Positions 5,797-57,623 of a stretch of DNA of 64,000 bases are shown in pieces. Numbering within the stretch: the stretch's first letter is position 1; each line of letters begins with the position of its first letter. Source of the stretch: Chalara sp. BL73 (taxonomy: Eukaryota > Ascomycota > Leotiomycetes > Helotiales); contig CAKJVC010000065.1 of NCBI GenBank assembly GCA_918026815.1, forward strand, positions 186,001 through 250,000, read 5' to 3'. Made by a program: the position numbers and the translations under genes. The notes under the pieces were generated by a model that was not told the origin of the DNA, did no database searches, and worked only from the letters and a program-made list of their open reading frames with translations.

Positions 5797-6633
5797 ATGC
5801 CAAACCTGGCGAAATATGCGTCGGGTCAGACACAACAGCGAATGAGACATACCTCCCGAGCGATGTATGGTGTGAAACAACAATACCTTCTCTACGACCA
5901 AGCCTCTCATTACCCACGGGAACCTATGGCTACGCAAATGCTGTCAACCGTTGCGTTCCCTTACTGCGCGGGTCATCCAGCTAGTACATCTCTGCATCCA
6001 GGCCCGCAGCATTAGTTGTCCTGGACAGAATATCAGCAAAGTCCAGCTGACTCCAACCAAATTCTACAGGGTTACACTGTGAACATAGGGAGGATGGGAA
6101 ATATGACTTCGGCTGCTCCTGAAGTCATAGACGAACCCGAGGACGAAGCAACCAGCCTGGACCAGGCACACGCTACCTACCAAAATTCGCTGAGGGAGAT
6201 ATTCCATAACATAAGAAACAACGTGCTAGTAGAAGCCAGCGCCTCTCTTCTCGAAGTATCTGGCTAGTTGCTCTCGCATGCTGGAGATCTTGGTGAGTCG
6301 AAGATCCTCTGAACCTCAAAGTCTCATACCCCACGAGATTATTTTCAAGATGGCCAAGGAACTTGTATAGCTTTGCGATACTATCGACAAGCACGGACTC
6401 ATCGACTATCAATACGGCATCTGGGAAGAGAGAATTATAGCCAGTACGTTTCTGTCCCCTATCACCGATTTACTACAATTTAGCTGACTGAACTTAGTTC
6501 TCGGAGACTGTGCAGATATCTGGGAGGATTGCGAGAGGTGGTACTGTGCAAGGGCCAAATTGAAAAGTCCGCCTCGGGGAGAACGTCAACATAGCGACCT
6601 CGAGGTGGGGCGCCTTTACCAGTTTACCTTGTG
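5797..6633 (+). pseudogene. Decayed conserved fungal gene with relic intron
   Basis: Fragments of one protein can be followed through stops and a frameshift. From 5797 the frame is open except for TAG at 6013 and TAG at 6265; the latter sits in LEVSG-stop-LLSHAGDLG, where a Trp would fit, so TGG to TAG. In a shifted frame the sequence continues as IPHEIIFKMAKELV-stop-LCDTIDKHGLIDYQYGIWEE, reaches a relic intron at 6444-6497 (GTACGT donor, CTGAC branch, AG acceptor) and goes on as ILGDCADIWEDCERW to a stop at 6631-6633. It resembles widespread fungal hypothetical proteins with a SLREIF-NIRN segment whose function I cannot name. The stops fit RIP-type transitions. Confidence 0.6.
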
Positions 6634-46701: not shown

Positions 46702-48567
46702 ATGGCCACAAATAACGACTGGCCGCCTCATCTATCAGCCCTTATCAAAATTCTTCATATACCCAAGGCAGCCGAGAAGATTCTCTATCATCTAGGGAAA
46801 CCTTCCACACCAGAGCAACTCCAGATCTTTTGGATCTTGAAATTGCTTCAAGGAGAGGAAGGCGGGACTTCTTTTAAGTCGCAGCCTTACTTCACATATA
46901 GCCCTATCGATCTCTCCCAACATATGTTCAGGCTCTGCAACCTTCTGCCAGCCGAATTTGACGACCCAGTTCTGTGCGAACTGATAGATGACTCCTTGGA
47001 TCTAGCTGAGAATTCCTATTCGGCATTGTCGTATACATGGGGAACACCGACTTCCGCAAGGCGGATCCGACTCAACAACAAGCCATTTCACGTGCAGCCA
47101 AACCTGTTCGCTGCTCTCAAGGCAATCCGGAAGACAGATGAGCCAGTGAAGGTATGGGTTGATGCAATATGTATCAATCAGCTGGAAGACGTAGAAAAAG
47201 GCCATCAAGTTTCGCGTATGGGTCAGATATACGCGAATGCAAAAGGGGTGGCAGCCTGGCTTGGTCATGGTACAGCCGGAAGCGACTTCGCCTTTCGTTG
47301 TTTGAAGTTGATGCGAATATCCGAGGACGTGCGGAGGGGAATGTATGGATCGCCTGACTATCTTAAAGTCAGCGCAATGCTACCTCATATCGAGCCCCCG
47401 GGAGCTGAATTGCGTGCGCTTTGTCGACTAGACTATTGGCAGCGTGCTTGGGTCAGGCAAGAGATTCTGCTGGCAAAAGATATTCAGCTTTATTGTGGCA
47501 GGTTGTCAATCAGTTGGAAGGAATTCGGCGTGAATGGCATGGCAGCCAATATTCCGGATATCGAGGACATACCGGAAAGCAGATTCGTCGGTGACTTCTA
47601 TTTCCACCGCACAAAGATGACAAACGAAGAACCGAAAACGCTTGAGCGATTGCTGGGCAAGTATGGAATGTCCAAGTGCAGTGATCTTCGCGATCGAGTA
47701 TTTGCACTCCTGTCGCTGTCATCAGATTGTACGGGGTTTGACAATCAACTGGCAGACTACACACTAGAACGACCAATGTTATTCTTTGCTGTCTTGGCTC
47801 ATTGCAAGCCAGAAGACCCTTCGGCCCTCGCAAACCAGCTGCAAGATATCCTACAGGTTCGCAGGTGTGATCTTATTCGCCTTTGGAATCAAGTCAATGA
47901 CCCAAACGATAACTATCACATCCCATCTGGCTCTCACCTCAAAACGACCGCCATCAATTTCATACGGCAAGTACATAATTTTAAGCACTCCGCCCAACTA
48001 TACAACGAACCAGCATCTAGCAATGCCGAAGCTGGTCGGCAAATATCCAGCGACCAAGAGCAAGAGTTTGTTGAGCGATCTTATCGTCTATTACCGGACT
48101 CACTGAAAGGGAATTTGGGTAATCTCACGTCCCCAGACCTGAGATTTTTCGCGATAGAGAAGTGCGAGATCGGCCTCATGTTCCGTCCTACCTTGTTCGG
48201 ATACGTCTACGAATGCTGCGCTCTGAATAAGGGGAACGGATGCCAACCAATCCGAGCCAAGCTTGAATTCTTCCAAGACAGCACCATCTACCGACTGCTT
48301 GCCCTAATACTCGAAAATGAAGATGCGATAGTATGGGACGGAGGCTTGGTACGCACGTTGAGTGGGTTGGAGAGCGGCGAACCAAGTCTCCCAGATTATG
48401 CCACCTTGTGTGCTATTTTCGACAGGTTGAGTCAGAACATAGTGCTCTGTCTAACAGCGTGTCGGTTTATTACGACAGAGGTCTTTGGTCATGCAATTTT
48501 TGAGCCTCGCCAAATCGGAGATGAAGCAGCAGATCAGACCGGAGCATTGGAAGTTACCGGTAGCTGA
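46702..48567 (+). CDS. HET-domain protein, 621 residues
   Basis: The reading frame is open from 46522, but the first ATG is at 46702 in good context (AGCAATGGCC) after a CT-rich leader, so that start is chosen. HET motifs: SALSYTWG (107-114), VWVDAICINQ (151-160) and WQRAWVRQEI. Downstream, LRDRVFALLSLSSDC is typical of the Pezizomycotina 'heterokaryon incompatibility 6/OR allele'-like HET proteins, as is the long C-terminal region. No intron or break is visible. It is divergent from the HET gene at 43507-45447, which belongs to a different HET subgroup (ALSYVWG/CISQ against ALSYTWG/CINQ). Confidence 0.9.
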   Translation: MATNNDWPPHLSALIKILHIPKAAEKILYHLGKPSTPEQLQIFWILKLLQGEEGGTSFKSQPYFTYSPIDLSQHMFRLCNLLPAEFDDPVLCELIDDSLDLAENSYSALSYTWGTPTSARRIRLNNKPFHVQPNLFAALKAIRKTDEPVKVWVDAICINQLEDVEKGHQVSRMGQIYANAKGVAAWLGHGTAGSDFAFRCLKLMRISEDVRRGMYGSPDYLKVSAMLPHIEPPGAELRALCRLDYWQRAWVRQEILLAKDIQLYCGRLSISWKEFGVNGMAANIPDIEDIPESRFVGDFYFHRTKMTNEEPKTLERLLGKYGMSKCSDLRDRVFALLSLSSDCTGFDNQLADYTLERPMLFFAVLAHCKPEDPSALANQLQDILQVRRCDLIRLWNQVNDPNDNYHIPSGSHLKTTAINFIRQVHNFKHSAQLYNEPASSNAEAGRQISSDQEQEFVERSYRLLPDSLKGNLGNLTSPDLRFFAIEKCEIGLMFRPTLFGYVYECCALNKGNGCQPIRAKLEFFQDSTIYRLLALILENEDAIVWDGGLVRTLSGLESGEPSLPDYATLCAIFDRLSQNIVLCLTACRFITTEVFGHAIFEPRQIGDEAADQTGALEVTGS

Positions 48568-48579
48568 AATTTTGCCATG

Positions 48580-48820
48580 GAAGTGCTGGATGATGCTTCT
48601 GGAAGGCCGAGCCCAGTTCTTATTTGGAGGCTTAAGTTAGTCGCTTATTTGTTGTGGAATGCTGGCGGGCGATGCTAAAGGCAAGGGAAGGTAGACACTT
48701 GATTTACACAGGATTCCCAAGGTCAGCCATTAGTTTCAAACACTTTTCGAGTTCTTTCTCCTCCGATGAAGTGAGATACTGTTGACCTTGGGCTTTTCTC
48801 TTCTTTTGAGCGCCGCTCAT
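48580..48820 (-). pseudogene. Pogo-type transposase N-terminal remnant (CENP-B/psq HTH)
   Basis: Minus strand: YLTSSEEKELEKCLKLMADL, GNPV-stop-IKCLPSLAFSIARQH, then in a shifted frame KPPNKNWAR. This is the psq-type helix-turn-helix and the K-P-PG-K-NWA segment at the start of fungal pogo transposases. The stop fits CAA to TAA. It ends right behind the HET gene at 48567. Confidence 0.7.
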
Positions 48821-49227
48821 AACTACGATGGAAGAGAGCAGTGAGAGCGGCTCCACTATGTTTTCATTCAGCATTATATGTGTGAGGCTCTCCCGGCAGG
48901 GCGGCCTCTGCAAGGGCTTTACTGGCGCAGTTGCCCATAAAGCATTACCTCTGTACCTTATATGACAATGCTATGAAGGGCGGGGAGCTCTGGATATCGA
49001 ATTTTTGCAAGATTCCACGTATCGGGTCGCTGTTCCCCTCTCTCAAGAGTATTTGGAACAGCCTAATTTGTTCTGTCGTTGTGTCTAGACGCTGATAACA
49101 AAAAGTTCTTGTATACGTGCCTTTAATCGAATCCATGTCCTGCTCCATATGATCAGGGAGGGCAGAAAGATCAAGTATGCCTCAATAGCTGGAGATGGAA
49201 GTTGTGTATTTTGCAACTTGAGGTCAA

Positions 49228-49486
49228 TGTAACAATCGGTATGCCCAAGGTGCGGCACAGAGTCAGAGGACAGGATCAAGGGGTGGATGATAAGGGTATG
49301 AGGGGTTTCAGAGCCGATACGGTGGAGAGTCGGAGTCGCCTATATAAATGCCTATTCCTACTCTCTACACTTACTCCTCATATTTTTGTATTCTTCGTAG
49401 GTAGACCTATTAGGCAATCACTATCAGCCTATTGTACGCACTCCCATATACCTCTATTCTAGCTGGTGGTTCCTTGCGTCGTTACA
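49228..49486 (+). mobile_element. Solo LTR, family E (copy E2) with target duplication
   Basis: TGTAACAATCGGTATGCCC ... CTTGCGTCGTTACA, 259 bp, flanked by GTCAA (49223-49227, 49487-49491). Confidence 0.92.
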
Positions 49487-49537
49487 GTCAAAGCGTACAG
49501 ACTACTAAAGCGATATTAATAAGTTATGGTTGGTGCT

Positions 49538-49627
49538 TAGTTATAACAATTGACAGTTGTTCATACCTTTGAGTCCTTCTCCCTGAGATCCACGGATCGA
49601 GATCCCTGTTCGACTTGAGTTGTTACA
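49538..49627 (+). mobile_element. LTR family A fragment (A5), inverted relative to A6
   Basis: Sense on plus: TTATAACAATTGACAG ... CGACTTGAGTTGTTACA. It faces the complete copy A6 with only 19 bp between them, so the two form an inverted pair. Confidence 0.78.
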
Positions 49628-49628
49628 G

Positions 49629-50222
49629 AACGAGCTAACAAGAAACTGTAACAACTCAAGTCGAACAGGGATCTCGATCCGTGGATCTCAGGGAGAAGGA
49701 CTCAAAGGTGTGAACAACTTCAATCGTTATAACTAAGAGAACAAGCTACGGGCAGAATAAGGGGAGGAAAGCAGGGCTTTATATACGGGAGGCTGGCCAG
49801 TAAGCGAGCCCTGTGGTGTCCGGAGCCAAGCTCCAAGCGAGAAAAGGCCAGGGCCGTGACAGAAACCACGCATCCTGATCTGTGACGGCTCCGGAACGCG
49901 CGAAACTTTCGAAATCTTAGAGTTCTGTTTCGAGAATAATATTCTTCTATGTCGCCTTCTCTCTTATACCTCCCACAAGCTCCAGCTTTGTGACGTGGCA
50001 GTGTTTGCTCCACTCAAGGCATACTATCGCGACCAGGTTGATCGACTCGAGCAAAAAAGCGCAAATACGATCGGCAAGACGCACTTCACCCCTCTATATA
50101 GCCCCGCGAGGAAAATAGCGTTCACGCCAAAGAACATCAAGGCTGGCTTCGCTGCAAGTGGTCTGTTCCCGCTCAATCCAGATAGGGTGCTTAGAAGTAT
50201 GCCCAACCCCCGGCTGAACTAG
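49629..50222 (+). pseudogene. Pogo-type (DDE_1) transposase fragment, split by LTR A6
   Basis: With the LTR at 49647-49861 and one GAAAC removed, the frame reads TERANKKPRILICDGSGT, then ETFEILEFCFENNILLCRL, SHKLQLCDVAVFAPLKAYY, VDRLEQKSANTIGKTHF, FTPKNIKAGFAASGLFPLNP, and stops at 50220-50222. ICDG and CDVAVFAPLK carry the second and third acidic residues of the catalytic triad. The tail continues as untranslated homology (VGSCQQDVELQTP) to about 50320. The 5' half is gone. Confidence 0.8.
49647..49861 (-). mobile_element. Solo LTR, family A (A6) with target duplication
   Basis: TGTAACAACTCAAGTCG ... GGGCCGTGACA, 215 bp, flanked by GAAAC (49642-49646, 49862-49866), inserted in the pogo transposase. 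Confidence 0.92.
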
Positions 50223-50722
50223 CCATTCCAAGAGCCGATAAGGTGAAGGTAGGGTCTTGCCAGCAGGACGTAGAACTGCAGACGCCTGTGACGCCTGTGG
50301 CAGAGGCTTTTATGTCGCTGCTGACCGGACCGTTATCCCAATCGGCGTCTTCTTCGAAGTAGGTACGAGGAGGAACGTAATTCCACTCATCCAAAGTCTT
50401 GTTCTGGTCTTCGCTCCACGAAGCTAACGTCCTATCTCTACCGTGGGGTTGGTATAGCTAGGAGCGAAATCGATGTCCTGTCTATCAAAAACTCTTTCAA
50501 TCAATTCCTGAAAGCACAGACCTTCATTCTGGGTTGTCACGTGATGACTAATAATACATTTTGGTTGGCTGCGCACTTCTCTCTAACATTGCTCGTTACA
50601 GTAAGCGAACGGCGCAGCCCCAACATATAGGCAGACGACTCCTCAGCTTTACAACCTTCTTACTCCCTCCTGCTACCTAAGTATTTCTCTGCTTGACTAT
50701 CCAGCGCACATTATCATTTGCA

Positions 50723-51829
50723 ATGGCTCGAACAAAAGAAACTGCTCGCAAATCAACAGGTGGGCCTGCCCCTCGGAGACCGCTCCCTGGCGGCGGCAGT
50801 CACCCGCCACTATACTATAACTACGGAAAACGTCCCTCACAGCAACAAATTATCTCGGAATACCCTATGGTTCCTGATACAGTATCAACTCCTCGTGAAG
50901 CAATTAGTTCAGCCGCTCAAAAAACGGTATTATCCACTCCGGAACTCATTGTCATCATTCTATCTCAGCTTCCGCACTCCTCTCTGCTCAAGGCCAAACG
51001 TGTCAATAGAACATGGGCAAGCCTTTTCGGACATGTAGAAATCCAAGCCGCGTTATTTCAGCATCCCAGGCCTAAAGGATCGGCTTTGTATGCCGAAACA
51101 CATTCAGATATATTGATGGATAAGTTCTCCACCTTTTGGCCGATCAACGGAGAAGACAAGGCGGTGTTCTCCAAAAGTTCTACCGTGAAGACCTTTCATC
51201 CCGAGAAGTGGAACGAAATACCCGTCGATGCATCGAATAGTCATGATCAATCAGAAACGCGTTTGCAAAACACAACAACTCTTCACCCGCAGCAGGAACG
51301 AGGACATGAAGACAAGTGCCCCTATTGGCAGCAGTGGCGACAACTTCTTATTTGCCAACCACCCATCGAAGCTCTAGAGCTTGTCCAAGAGGTCGGCCGA
51401 CGCGGAGGCGGGACTTTGGAATTCCGAACCGTCATTCCTCGTCCTGGCGGTTTACGGATGGGCTTTCTCTACGATGCTGTCAGGCATTGGCATGAAGTCG
51501 AGCGCAGCCCTGCTCAACTGCTATGGAACAGGAGAACCGGGGACCTTGCCTACCCTAACCAAATTTACGTGGACGGTCCTAGCTTCAAGACGATTGAGGA
51601 CAAGCCGTGCGTAACGATCTGGGGACACACAAGTGTAGGATGTGGCCAGCACGGGGGGCTGACATACAGAAACTACCCTGGGCAAAGAACCCAGGTTATA
51701 GAAAGTGGTGACGAAAAGGTAAAGTATTGTATGTCTAAAGCTAGGCATGTAAGCGTCGATTTGGGCATGCTCTACGCTTCTATGGAGCAAGATGCAGAAG
51801 ATCAAGAGGACCAAGAAGATGAGAACTAA
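50723..51829 (+). CDS. F-box protein with a histone H3-like N-terminal tail
   Basis: A 368-residue single-exon ORF; the first ATG (50723, context TGCAATGGCT) is used. Residues 2-18 read ARTKETARKSTGGPAPR, against ARTKQTARKSTGGKAPR in histone H3: 17 of the first 21 residues (Met included) match. The equivalents of H3 R2, T3, K4, T6, R8, K9, S10, T11 and R17 are kept; Q5 is E, K14 is P, K18 is R, Q19 is P. A Pro/Gly/Tyr linker follows, then an F-box (about 70-113: LSTPELIVIILSQLPHSSLL, AKRVNRTWASLF). The rest has no domain I recognise and ends in an acidic tail (EDQEDQEDEN). F-box proteins recruit substrates to SCF ubiquitin ligases. The tail could let it bind readers, writers or erasers of H3 marks; that is inference. 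Confidence 0.88.
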   Translation: MARTKETARKSTGGPAPRRPLPGGGSHPPLYYNYGKRPSQQQIISEYPMVPDTVSTPREAISSAAQKTVLSTPELIVIILSQLPHSSLLKAKRVNRTWASLFGHVEIQAALFQHPRPKGSALYAETHSDILMDKFSTFWPINGEDKAVFSKSSTVKTFHPEKWNEIPVDASNSHDQSETRLQNTTTLHPQQERGHEDKCPYWQQWRQLLICQPPIEALELVQEVGRRGGGTLEFRTVIPRPGGLRMGFLYDAVRHWHEVERSPAQLLWNRRTGDLAYPNQIYVDGPSFKTIEDKPCVTIWGHTSVGCGQHGGLTYRNYPGQRTQVIESGDEKVKYCMSKARHVSVDLGMLYASMEQDAEDQEDQEDEN

Positions 51830-52968
51830 GTGTCGGAATACCCGGGTCATAGATATTGCCTATACTTTAACCTGAGGGCACGCACGCATGTGTTCATGCG
51901 TAATGCTCGTTGAGGTTGTTGGATAAGTCTTGATTGATTCTAAGCTACGTGTCGCGAAAAGGTTGTAGGTCCCGAAGAGGGCCCACAACTCTTCACGTGA
52001 CTAGTTACATACGTTCCAACACTAAGTTATTAGATGAAAATCAGCTTAATTTACTTATGTTTAAACAGATGAAATATCGAAAGGCTGGAAATAGAAATTA
52101 AAATCATATCAGACGCTGTACAGCAGAAATGATCTCCGAAGCTTTTTTTTTGAAAGATGAAGTTGCGTGGGAACACCCGGGTTGTAGTAATTCGCTCAAG
52201 TCGGTCACTGTTGGTATGCCCCCCCTTACCTTCCACGGGGCAACGGGCGTAGCTCTATAGGCCACGCTCTTGCTCTTGATGGATATGGTAATTGTTGTTG
52301 TATTAGGTTCTACTCTAGATTCTACAAAATGGGAGTTGTGCGGACCATGTGACCTGGTGGGTCATACGCGGATCCGTAAACCCTTGCTTCCTATAATTGC
52401 AAAACCAGGTTTTATTGTGACGAAACATCATTTGCGGTCCCTACAAAAGTTGGGCAATTGGGCCTGACATCTTATTGCTTGTAGTTCGGGAGTAAACAAG
52501 GGAACGTGTCATTGCACAAGACGATTTGATTATTAACGGCTGAGAAGGTATTTTCAAATGCGTGGATAATTGTGCATTCGAAAATTATGGAGAACTCGGG
52601 AAAGCTCGAAATGTCACTAATTCTACTCCACAATCACTTCTACGCCCAGTCTCGGCCCGTGCGGCGGCCCGCAGCGCTGTCGTCCACGGTCGGAAAGCAT
52701 ATTTCTGGTGCAGAACGTTAGTCGGGAGTGCAGTTGCGCATTGTTTAGGTTAGCTTTGAGCAAATCCAACGATTCAGCCACAGCCTTGCCGGAGGCTCCC
52801 GTCGCCTGATCTTCCGCCCCCACCCTCATTAAGCGTAAGCAGCCAGCCTTGTCCTGCTTTCCACCTGGGGCTTCAGCCGTACCAACTCATGAAACTTTCA
52901 GCTTTTGAACAACAAACCGTCGTGCTTTCATCTACAAATCACGGCATATTTTGTCCCCAGAAAAGTTT
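51830..52968. other. Intergenic, with one repeat
   Basis: Contains the repeat at 52315-52395. A GC-rich patch at 52650-52690 is not part of any frame I recognise. No gene can be supported. Confidence 0.4.
52315..52395 (+). repeat. Less mutated copy of the repeat at 14745-14815
   Basis: TTCTACAAAATGGGAGTTGT, GCGGACCATGTGACCTGG, ATACGCGGATCCGTAAACCC. It keeps C where the other copy has T. Confidence 0.6.
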
Positions 52969-55900
52969 ATGATGGTGTTAACTACGCTTGATCCCGTCGG
53001 CGATGAGCCTGGTAGAGCATTGCCACACACTTTGGAGTATGTAGGACCAAGTTCACATCGATAGCGACCAAATTCACATCGACAGCGCTAACTATGTTTT
53101 GACAGTATCGTTGTTGTACACGGACTTAACGGTGATCCGCTCTCTTCGTGGACTCACCCGGTGACAAAAGCACTCTGGCCGCAAGACTTCCTGCCTCTCG
53201 ATATTCCCGAAGCCCGTGTGATGACATTCGGGTATAATGCAACTGCGGCATTCGGCAACACGACGGCAGATATTGTGGACCACGCGAAAGATCTTTTAGG
53301 GAGTCTCCTCGATAAACGAGAAATGGATGAAGAGCAGCGGAGACCGATTATATTCATTGCGCACTCTCTTGGAGGTATTGTTGTGAAGCAGGTATGCCGA
53401 AGCCTCGCGCATACAAATCCGTTATTTAACAAATCAGGCTTTGCTTTCAGCTCGGATCGAATCGCAATACTCCTTAATCAACGAGAGCACAATAGGTATT
53501 ATCTTTTTTGGCACCCCACATACCGGAAGCGAGAAAGCAACATATGGCAAAATTCTGGGAAGTGTTGCATCGGCTATGATCAATAAGCCTTCATCGAAGC
53601 TCCTTAGTGCTTTACAGAGTAATAGTGACATATTGGCCCGACTCACGTCTGATTTTAGACATCAATTGCCACAATACCAAATTGTCACCTTTTACGAAAC
53701 ACGACCGATGGGGCTGTTCAAAAAAGAGGTTAGTGCAAATGTGATGTGGCACGTCTGCTTCCTTAAACCTAATCGCCTACAGATTGTTGAGAAGCAGTCG
53801 GCATTGCTGCAGGTGGCTGGAGAGGACCAACAGCCGATTAATGCTAATCATCGGGATATGTGCAAGTTCGCAGCTCGAGATGATGAGAATTATGAAAAGC
53901 TGTTCAAGAGAATACGCCGAATGCTGAAAGCGAAGGATAATAATAAAGCTATTGAAGCATGTACGTAGCTATTTTTTACTGAGATAGTGTTGGGTATGCT
54001 TATATTTCATTATAGCTTCTGGTAACAAATACTATAATGTCCCACACAATGTCAGCGCAAGTTTCACTGGAAGAGACGACGTGTGTACTCAGCTTCGAGA
54101 CAGCTGTATTTTACGTAAGCCTACCGGCACACAGCGTCGCTTTGTACTATATGGTCTTGGTGGTTCCGGGAAAACCCAAGTTGCTTTAAAGTTTACGCAG
54201 GATCATCGCGAAAGGTACTGAATCCTATACGTACAATCTCTGCTAACAATAATCAGTTTCTGGGGCATATTTTGGATCGATTGCAGTTCTATACAGACAA
54301 TCGAACAAGGGTTCATTAAAATAGCTCAATTTTTCAAAATCGAAGAAAACATAGACGCAACGCGGACATGGTTCTCAAACATTTCAGACAATTGGCTTTT
54401 TTTATTCGATAACGCGGATAATACTTCGATTGACATTTCTCGATACTTTCCAAGCGGTGGACGAGGGACTATTGTGATAACTACCAGAAATCCCGAATGC
54501 AGAGTTCACCAGACTGTTGGCTCGTATGAGTTTTCCGGGATGAGAACCGAAGAAGCTATTACTTTGCTATTTAAGCTTATTGGCAAGGAAAAAAGGTCTC
54601 AACATGAGCATGAAGCTGCAAGAGATATCGTAGCTACATTAGGCAACCTGGCTTTGGCCATCACCCAAGCTGGTGCCGCTATCCGGCAAAATTTATGCCG
54701 GCTCGAGGACTATTGTGCGTTGTATCAACGTCGCCGGCAGGAACTTTTGAGCCGTGCGCCATCTCAAGCTAGATCTGATTATAAGTACACGGTTTACACG
54801 ACTTGGGAAGTTTCTATTGATATGATCAAAAGCTTGGAAGGTGAAGCACCTGGCCGTGCTTTAGAACTTCTTCGAATATTCTGTTTTTTTCACTATGACG
54901 GAATATCCGAAGAAATTTTCAAGCAGGGCTGGCAAAACCTGGAAAGTGGATCTGAGCTAGAGTATACAGCTCTAGGCCAGATTCGTTGGCTATATAAAAG
55001 CGACTTATCGGCATGGGATCCTTACACATTTCGAGAAGCAATGATTCTTTTATCATCTTTCTCCTTAATCAAGATTGATGAGTCTAACAATTTTTCTCTC
55101 CACCCGCTTGTTCATATGTGGGCTCGAGATAGATTAAATACGGAAGAGCAAATAAAGACGGCAGCTTTAACGGCGCTGATACTAGCAATTTCGATATCTT
55201 TTAGAGACGAAGTCTTTGACTTTATATATAGGAGATCTTTATTATCACATATTCTATGTTGCATGAAATATCTCAAGCTCCAGAATGAAACTATACACAG
55301 CCAGGAAGAGATCACAATAGCTTCGAAATTTGCTCGAATACACGTAGATTCTGGACAGTGGCGAAACGCATGCGAGCTTAGGGAAAAGGTGTTTGAGGCG
55401 AGGAAAAGAACGCTTGGAGATGAGCACCCAGATACTTTGATGTCAATGAACAATCTTGCATCAAGTTATAGCGATCTAGGTCGAATACAAGAAGCAGTTG
55501 AGCTTGAAAAAAAAGTGCTTGAAGTAAGAAAAAAAACGCTTGGAGATAAGCACCCAGATACTTTGAATTCAATGAACAATCTTGCATCAAGCTACAGCGA
55601 TCTAGGTCGAATGCAAGAAGCAGTTAAGCTTAAAGAAAAAGTACTTGAAGCGAGTAAAAGAACGCTGGGAGATGAGCACCCAGATACTTTGAATTCAATG
55701 AACAATCTTGCATCAAGCTACAGCGACCTAGGTCGAATGCAAGAAGCAGTTGAGCTTAGAGAACAAGTGCTTGAAGCAAGTAAAAAAACGCTTGAAAATG
55801 AGCACCCAGATACTTTGATATCGATAAACAATCTTGCATCAAGCTACAGCGATCTAGGTCGAATGCAAGAAGCAGTTGAGCTTAGAGAACAAGTACTTGA

Positions 55901-57623
55901 AGCGAGAAAAAGAACGCTTGGAAATGAGCACCCAGATACTTTGATGTCAATGAACAATCTTGCATCAAGCTACAGCGACCTAGGTCGAATACAAGAAGCA
56001 GTTGAGCTTGAAGAACAGGTGTTCAAAGCGAGAAAAAGAACGCTTGGAGATGAGCACCCAAGTACTTTAATTTCGATGAACAATCTTGCGTCAAGCTACA
56101 GCGACCTAGGTCGAATGCAAGAAGCAGTTGAGCTTGAGGAAAAAGTGCTTGAAGCGAGAAAAAGAACGCTTGGAGATGAGCACCCAAGTACTTTAATTTC
56201 GATGAACAATCTTGCGTCAAGCTACAGCGACCTAGGTCGAATGCAAGAAGCAGTTGAGCTTAGAGAACAGGTGCTTGAAGCGAGTAAAAAAACGCTTGGA
56301 GATGAGCATCCAGATACTTTGAATTCAATGAACAATCTTGCATCAAGCTACAGCGACCTAGGTCGAATGCAAGAAGCAGTTGAGCTTAGAGAACAGGTGC
56401 TTGAAGCGAGAAAAAGAACGCTTGGAGATGAGCACCCAGATACTTTGATGGGGATGAACAATCTTGCATCAAGCTACAGCGATCTAGGTCGAATGCAAGA
56501 AGCAGTTGAGCTTAGAGAACAGGTGCTTGAAGCGAGAAAAAGAACGCTTGGTAATGAGCACCCAAAAACTTTAATGTCGATGAACAATCTTGCATCAAGC
56601 TACAGCGATCTAGGTCGAATCCAAGAAGCAGTTGAGCTTGAAGAAAAAGTGCTTAAAGCGAGAAAAAGAACGCTGGGAGATGAGCACCCAGATACTTTGA
56701 ATTCAATGAACAATCTTGCATCAAGCTACAGCGATCTAGGTCGAATGCAAGAAGCAGTTGAGCTTAGAGAACAAGTGCTTGAAGCGAGTAAAAGAACGCT
56801 TAAAGATGAGCACCCAGATACTTTGATAAGGATGAACAATCTTGCATCAAGCTACAGCGACCTAGGTCGAATGCAAGAAGCAGTTGAGCTTAGAGAACAA
56901 GTGCTTGAAGCGAGTAAAAAAACGCTTGGAGATAAGCACCCAGATACTTTGATGGGGATGAACAATCTTGCATTAAGCTACAGCGATCTAGGTCGAATGC
57001 AAGAAGCAGTTAAGCTTAGAGAACAGGTGCTTGAAGCGAGTAAAAGAACGCTTAGAGATGAGCACCCAGATACTTTGATAAGGATGAACAATCTTGCATC
57101 AAGCTACAGCGATCTAGGTCGAATGCAAGAAGCAGTTGAGCTTAGAGAACAGGTGCTTGAAGCGAGAAAAAGAACGCTTGGAGATGAGCACCCAAGTACT
57201 TTAATTTCGATGAACAATCTTGCATCAAGCTACAGCGATCTAGGTCGAATACAAGAAGCAGTTGAGCTTGAGGAAAAAGTGCTTGAAGCGAGAAAAAGAA
57301 CGCTTGGAGATGAGCACCCAAAAACTTTGAATTCAATGAACAATCTTGCATCAAGCTACAGCGATCTAGGTCGAATGCAAGAAGCAATTGAGCTTGAAGA
57401 AAAGGTGTTCAAAGCGAGAAAAAGAACGCTTGGAGATAAGCACCCAGATACTTTGGCTTCGGCGAGCAATCTCAATGTCTTCTTAGACATGCTAGAGTCG
57501 CACATTTCATCACAGGATCTGAATGTAAGCTCTTTTGTAGATATCAAGCAAGCAGGAAAAGCAGAGTCTAGGGTCCGACGGAGGATGAAGATCTGGTTTA
57601 AAAGTAAGTTTGAAGGAAGATGA
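52969..57623 (+). CDS. Alpha/beta-hydrolase-NB-ARC-TPR NLR (sesB-like N-terminus)
   Basis: Proposed exons: 52969-53036, 53106-53391, 53438-53728, 53783-53960, 54016-54214, 54257-57623; 1462 residues, all joins in frame. Introns are 42-69 nt; the one at 53729-53782 (GTTAGT ... CAG, 54 nt) has no stop and keeps frame, so its removal is likely but not certain. Residues 23-300 are a lipase/esterase-like alpha/beta hydrolase: VVVHGLNG and the nucleophile elbow AHSLGG (Ser110), with NANHRDMCKF as the His region. NB-ARC follows with FTGRDDV, P-loop GLGGSGKT (321-328), LFLFDNADN and GTIVITTR. Seventeen 42-residue TPR units (698-1411; LASSYSDLGRMQEAVELREQ) follow, then a basic tail. SesB-like hydrolase domains are a known N-terminal type of fungal NLRs. 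The gene seems intact. Confidence 0.9.
55326..57473 (+). repeat. Seventeen tandem 126-bp TPR-coding units
   Basis: Units share GCTACAGCGA(T/C)CTAGGTCGAA and similar stretches almost without change. Two forms alternate at one position (LREQVLEA against LEEKVLEA/LEEQVFKA), and single-unit differences cluster at the HP-D/S/K-TL-x-S/G/R-MNN segment. Confidence 0.92.

Follow-up and report, generated by a model that had tools for sequence, protein, structure and literature searches.

A histone H3-like N-terminal tail on a family of fungal F-box proteins

To our knowledge, most known cases of histone mimicry come from viruses, and the others from a few animal proteins with short motifs. According to the respective reports, Sgo1 docks Survivin through an H3-like N-terminal tail (PMC9253516), PAF15 has an H3-like N-terminus that is recognized by the ubiquitin ligase UHRF1 (PMC7060239), and EZHIP acts as a K27M-like inhibitor of PRC2 (PMC6513997). 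In Dothideomycetes, a further report describes histone H3 captured by hAT transposons (PMC6710886).

Here, we describe an F-box protein from Chalara sp. BL73 that begins with an H3-like tail. Like Sgo1, it is predicted to present a free, Ala-led, H3-like N-terminal tail on a non-histone protein, but the likeness extends over about 20 residues, whereas the motif reported for Sgo1 is the four-residue AKER (PMC9253516). As in PAF15, an H3-like N-terminus is tied to ubiquitin chemistry, but the mimic there is described as a substrate, while here it sits on a presumed ligase adaptor (PMC7060239). EZHIP likewise carries an H3 mimic in which the target lysine is replaced (PMC6513997). However, its mimic is internal, corresponds to the K27 region, and uses Met, whereas the tail described here is N-terminal, with several lysines affected and various replacements. 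The hAT-captured H3 resembles our case in that H3 sequence lies outside the histone gene of a fungal genome, and a similar repeat is present in this genome (PMC6710886). Those captured copies are described as H3-like genes residing in repeats; by contrast, the F-box gene occurs once in this genome, with neither a histone fold match nor a codon memory of H3. Compared to SCF F-box proteins, a near-complete H3 tail precedes the F-box here, and the C-terminal domain lacks a confident fold match. An F-box is what recruits Skp1 and Cul1; Sgo1 is not known to have one. Among the matches listed from the open-licence literature, we recognized no F-box protein with an H3 tail and no histone tails in fungal reverse transcriptase (RT)-like genes.

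An F-box gene that begins like histone H3

The gene lies at 50723..51829 (+ strand) of the window, by which we mean the whole 64,000-nucleotide stretch analyzed, a part of contig C59. It is an intact single-exon ORF of 368 amino acids that needs no intron. The first 21 residues, MARTKETARKSTGGPAPRRPL (50723..50785, + strand), are identical to H3 at 17 positions when Met is counted. K4, K9, and S10 are intact, as is the full TARKSTGG context, and the substitutions are E at Q5, P at K14, R at K18, and P at Q19. A first-pass annotation of this DNA had reported such a match from the initiator Met, with K4 and ARKS intact and K14 and K18 replaced, and the ORF and its translation agree with it. Since an in-frame TAA lies 14 codons 5' of the ATG and no further in-frame Met occurs before residue 49, the H3 tail can only be the N-terminus within that exon.

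When the first 25 residues alone were searched, the best sequence matches were H3 peptides from the PDB (E 7.5e-7). In a fixed N-terminal register, 16 of 20 matches have a chance probability of 9e-17 per protein, or about 1e-12 over an assumed 15,000 genes. The genome (58.66 Mb in 199 contigs) holds 34 matches to MARTKxTARKS with at most three mismatches, compared to 8 for a reversed-pattern control; these are the F-box gene, the H3 gene, one gene on contig C176, a tandem pair on contig C126, 24 repeat-borne H3-like copies, and five others. The pattern MARTKxTARKST had no match in viral contigs and eight exact matches in a prokaryote collection of 257 billion bases; of these eight, we interpret seven as histone H3 and the remaining one as a chance hit. 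A chance origin of the H3 likeness is excluded: the similarity goes beyond chance and starts at the initiator Met. The short length of the tail is all that speaks for chance, an annotation error, or recent capture of an H3 exon, an explanation that would survive only if every homologous gene model were wrong and that is made exceedingly improbable by the 9e-17 match, by the codons, and by the presence of the tail in 33 of 40 homologues and its conservation there; the reading of seven of the eight prokaryote-collection matches as histone H3 is a further argument against chance.

Behind the tail lies a fast-evolving linker (residues 22-64; 50786..50914, + strand) with low pLDDT and no predicted secondary structure. 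It is followed by the F-box region (residues 65-115; 50915..51067, + strand) and by a conserved C-terminal alpha/beta domain (residues 211-365; 51353..51817, + strand), which is a candidate partner or substrate domain. The Pfam F-box match at residues 73-104 scores 20.3 bits (E 5e-4), just under the cut-off of 20.5, and an F-box is found at E 0.01 or better in 53 of 54 aligned family members, the window copy included, with a best value of 3.5e-7; the first-pass annotation had placed an F-box after the tail, and these matches bear it out. In the predicted structure, alignment of the window protein to F-box chains is weak, and the H3 tail has no predicted structure. Block means of pLDDT over residues 211-360 range from 76 to 95, and structure comparisons with the predicted model gave no confident fold match for the C-terminal domain. 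The histone fold (PF00125) is absent from the window protein, for which Pfam returns two F-box families only at E 10 or better.

The F-box gene is flanked by a HET-domain gene (46702..48567, + strand; Pfam HET E 2.3e-28) and an NLR-like gene (53100..57623, + strand), so that the three together span window positions 46702-57623. The NLR-like gene has several exons and combines an esterase-like start, a P-loop that was read by eye, DUF7779, and a long run of TPR units that closely resemble one another; its outer limits are approximate. About 1 kb 5' of the F-box gene, at window positions 49555-49719, there is a 74-bp inverted repeat whose arms are 99% complementary around a 17-nt loop. The surroundings had been described as RIP-marked, which the data do not confirm: the composite RIP index of the F-box gene is -0.44, and only 3 of 32 two-kb bins are positive (20-22, 58-60, and 62-64 kb).

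The F-box gene has one copy in the whole genome, and a candidate F-box relative on contig C184 is without the H3 tail. Bisporella sp. PMI_857 (Helotiales, Leotiomycetes) has proteins that share 97% and 99% identity with two other proteins encoded here, which suggests that the two fungi are close relatives, whereas the single F-box relative from Bisporella sp. PMI_857 among the 61 homologues found (P0135) is only 62-67% identical. Together, these values make the gene look accessory or fast-evolving and the family patchy. Such patchiness, along with the HET and NLR-like genes on either side, would suit an immune bait, in which foreign effectors acting on H3 would be drawn to the tail and the F-box would bring about their destruction or a signal. 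This is very unlikely in our view, as the neighborhood alone, from one genome, points that way and no such effector is known.

Conservation of the tail and variation at its lysines

We searched for homologues with residues 23-368 as the query, leaving out the tail so that it could not draw matches, and found 61. By BLAST extrapolation, the start of 21 of the 61 models falls at window residue 24 or later, which makes them uninformative on the tail. Among the 40 informative homologues, the H3 tail is present in 33, absent in six (P0136, P0170, P0171, P0173, P0176, and P0179), and degenerate in one (P0165). Orthologues were where the first-pass annotation expected a chance match or an artefact to come to light, and most of those informative on the point have the tail. 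Under the rule applied, at least 9 of 18 residues identical, 32 of the 40 pass, and P0178 (MRTKQTARKSTGD) was added by eye. Though 9 would suffice, 30 of the 32 score at least 15, and P0162 equals H3 at every one of residues 1-20. The gene model starts exactly at the tail Met in 29 of the 32 passing homologues; the three models reaching 5' of it (P0131, P0149, and P0177) are all metagenomic. Ala follows Met in 31 of these 32 tails.

Named carriers include Stipitochalara, Oidiodendron, Glarea, Bisporella, Venustampulla, Pseudogymnoascus, and Cadophora, along with Aphanocladium album and Lecanicillium saksenae. They fall in Leotiomycetes and Cordycipitaceae, a classification checked for Pseudogymnoascus, Bisporella, and Stipitochalara (Leotiomycetes) and for L. 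saksenae (Cordycipitaceae).

For comparisons along the protein, we used 31 sequences, consisting of the window copy and 30 of the 32 passing homologues; P0133 and P0177, which are shorter proteins, and P0178 were omitted. Mean pairwise identity is 0.765 in the F-box, 0.303 in the linker, and 0.50-0.65 elsewhere, and it reaches 0.764 in the tail, a value conditional on the sequences having been picked for bearing one. Because an N-terminus with no predicted structure is as conserved as the F-box, sequence comparison provides strong evidence that the H3 tail is a family trait kept by selection. Gene conversion with H3 would be an alternative to selection, against which the codons argue in the window copy. 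Beyond the tail proper, Ala also stands at residue 21 in 20 of 30 homologues (the window copy has P), and there the H3 likeness stops. In yeast, H3 is clipped after A21, which we take as a lead only for residue 21 of the F-box tails.

Retention of the H3 residue was counted at each position across the 31 sequences. From the N-terminus, it is 30 for A1, 30 for R2, 29 for T3, 26 for K4, 29 for Q5, 29 for T6, and 30 for A7, with the E at Q5 seen in the window copy only and R in one other sequence. It continues with 31 for R8, 19 for K9, 31 for S10, 29 for T11, 23 for G12, and 30 for G13, and ends with 5 for K14, 30 for A15, 30 for P16, 29 for R17, 3 for K18, 16 for Q19, and 28 for L20. Summed over the sequences, the H3 residue is found in 454 of 496 cells at the 16 non-lysine positions and in 53 of 124 at the four lysine positions; among 4845 subsets of positions, 11 have retention this low. 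Parsimony on a tree of the protein body gives 4, 10, 16, and 14 changes at K4, K9, K14, and K18, respectively, and 0-3 at the other tail sites except G12 (7) and Q19 (12) (Mann-Whitney p 0.003).

At K9 the replacements are R, P, Q, V, or H, and at K4 they are R or N (5 of 31); overall they are mostly A, P, V, or R, with no single one fixed. Lysine accounts for 8.6% of the tail and 3.4-6.3% elsewhere in the protein, so tail lysines are not depleted and avoidance of self-ubiquitination is insufficient as a reason for their loss. The pattern suggests that the tail's partner is independent of K14 and K18 and, in part of the family, of K9 or K4.

These counts bear on the possibility that K4 and K9 are methylated as in H3, and that the tail serves to dock writers of the COMPASS/DIM-5 type or readers of methylated lysine (HP1, PHD, or WD40) and brings them to the SCF. 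The window copy would fit, with its K4, K9, and TARKSTGG, and so would the frequency of K4 in the family. However, most neighboring non-lysine residues hardly vary, while K9 is present in only 19 of 31 sequences and K4 is replaced in five, and we therefore consider methylation-dependent docking quite unlikely. The emphasis that the first-pass annotation placed on K4/K9 methylation machinery is weakened in the same way, in that lysines are what varies most across the family (K9, K14, and K18), yet K4 is kept in 26.

Histone-tail segments elsewhere in the genome and the origin of the tail

Three further kinds of genes in this genome carry histone-tail segments. A DUF7025-AAA ATPase gene on contig C176 (L042:2775-5012) starts MARTKQTARKST over an inferred intron; its MARTKQTARK-ST would run across this 53-bp intron and is followed by an acidic stretch, DUF7025, and AAA. 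The splice model finds support in a relative, P0182, whose annotated sequence reads MARTKQTARKSTED. Among the 120 relatives listed (of 210 matches), a tail with at least 8 of 12 residues occurs in 8, with K4 in all 8 and K9 in 3; other close relatives are without it, so the AAA tail is patchy among the relatives listed. DUF7025 has 20 matches in the genome, 19 of them above the cut-off. On contig C126, a gene starting MARTKQTARQTTKG lies on a tandem duplication of about 7.5 kb (L043 and L044; C126:215827 and 223298), and no domain was found in it.

The third case is internal. An 879-aa open frame on contig C11 (L077:2145-4784) contains H3 residues 3-32 at 83% identity, with K14, K23, and K27 kept and K4, K9, and K18 replaced; its relatives are named reverse-transcriptase-like by their sources. 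Loops were cut from 70 of the 120 relatives listed (P0001-P0120; 627 matches), and 41 were H3-like, 30 H4-like, and 19 neither, compared to 0 H3-like and 1 H4-like after shuffling. In the 41 H3-like loops, K18 is kept in 13, K23 in 28, and K27 in 24, and non-lysine positions in 23-36. Among 25 H4-like stretches, the H4 lysine is present in 3 at K12, in 5 at K8, in 9 at K16 (where 13 have M), and in 17 at K20; this count was anchored on R-H/Y-R, a choice that by itself fixes R17 and R19. The RT-like family thus also loses lysines from a tail that is otherwise kept, at H3 K18 and at H4 K8, K12, and K16, though not at every acetylatable lysine.

Several of these observations are relevant to what the F-box tail does. 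A similar tail on non-F-box proteins implies that the ligase is not needed for the tail's role, whatever that is. Since H3 tails act as import signals, the tail may merely take the adaptor to the nucleus or to chromatin. Its basic character is consistent with this, and the AAA ATPase, the C126 gene, and the internal RT-like segment suggest portable targeting, but a basic signal would not require G13, A15, P16, S10, and T11 to be kept while lysines go, making import or anchoring by itself quite improbable. Alternatively, the tail could be a decoy or competitive inhibitor that blocks an H3-tail enzyme at its active site or reader pocket, with the F-box mainly setting the inhibitor's own turnover. 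A lysine replaced within a kept tail recalls the Met for K27 in EZHIP (PMC6513997), and the RT-like relatives with M at H4 K16 in 13 of 25 stretches are also in line with it. In the EZHIP report, however, M or I lowered H3K27 methylation and K or R did not (PMC6513997), whereas the F-box family has mostly A, P, V, or R and none fixed, and we regard inhibition as unlikely.

A broader reading is that ascomycetes repeatedly put histone tails on unrelated proteins (F-box, AAA, RT-like with H3 and H4 segments in one loop, and a further gene) as a docking module. Selection would keep the backbone and discard several acetylatable lysines, yielding largely acetylation-proof tails that engage readers whatever the chromatin state, and the F-box family would aim ubiquitination at those readers. 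Lysine loss is not uniform, however: H3 K23 and K27 are kept about as often as their neighbors in the RT-like family, the AAA tail is patchy, and the contrast between acetylatable and other lysines was drawn after the data were seen. As lysine loss recurs only in part, the odds of this broader reading are lowered, and we hold it to be somewhat doubtful.

The genome also has a repeat with an H3-like gene (MARTKKIATKSARK...), found on L045 from about position 6139 (contig C51) and in 25 other places. Its adjoining ORFs look like hAT transposase by eye, with only a weak zf-BED match in Pfam. Over about 2.4 kb, 12 of 14 other copies compared (L007-L021) are >99.8% identical to the L045 copy, making recent activity of the repeat likely. 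Capture of H3 by a hAT element of this kind was considered for the F-box gene and rejected, as the captured H3 is a multicopy repeat while the F-box gene is single copy, with codon agreement to H3 at chance level.

The first-pass annotation had proposed that the tail arose by capture of an H3 5' exon, which the gene structures and codons speak against. The intron of the genome's own H3 gene reads as lying inside the R8 codon, whereas the mimic runs through to residue 20 without an intron. At residues shared with H3, 3 of 16 codons of the window mimic agree, compared to 4.5 expected from codon usage, and for the four mimics of the genome pooled, the agreement is 17 of 60 compared to 17.9 expected, with usage taken from five ORFs of the genome. 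The codons are saturated against H3, which suggests that the protein sequence was what was kept. In addition, the upstream regions are unrelated. Because the codons hold no memory of the H3 gene, recent capture of the window copy appears unlikely, and the tail would be either an old fusion or convergent.

A putative adaptor for H3-tail-binding proteins

Of the first-pass reading, an H3 mimic on an F-box protein stands as real and conserved, while the lysine-centred mechanism and the exon-capture origin are not favored. Our best explanation, held tentatively and at slightly less than an even chance, is an SCF-type adaptor that uses its H3-shaped tail to dock a protein able to bind H3 tails, by way of residues other than the lysines. 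Such a bait-type adaptor is the simplest reading of a tail, linker, F-box, and conserved C-terminal domain in one protein. Sgo1 with Survivin (PMC9253516) and PAF15 with UHRF1 (PMC7060239) provide precedents for docking by an H3-like N-terminus.

The initiator Met would be removed, as expected for Met-Ala, to leave a free ARTK-like end. On its flexible linker, the free tail would then dock a protein that normally binds the H3 N-terminus, and the contacts would be those kept across the family, namely the free A1, R2, T3, Q5-R8, S10-T11, G13, A15-R17, and L20. Through the F-box, Skp1 and Cul1 would be brought in, and the docked protein would be ubiquitinated or held at the ligase. Since the family can do without K14 and K18, and to some extent without K9, the likeliest partner is a protein that requires neither acetyl- nor methyl-lysine. 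Candidates, offered as a guess, are a Bir1/Survivin-type BIR protein, a kinase acting on H3 at T3 or S10, or a PHD-type protein that reads the H3 end in its unmodified state. The genome has two BIR matches, which are adjacent and read as one gene.

If this explanation is true, histone tails that are fixed and less open to modification would be a means by which cells control chromatin proteins. The 31 sequences form a natural mutational series of the H3 tail, which would tell which of its residues a partner needs.
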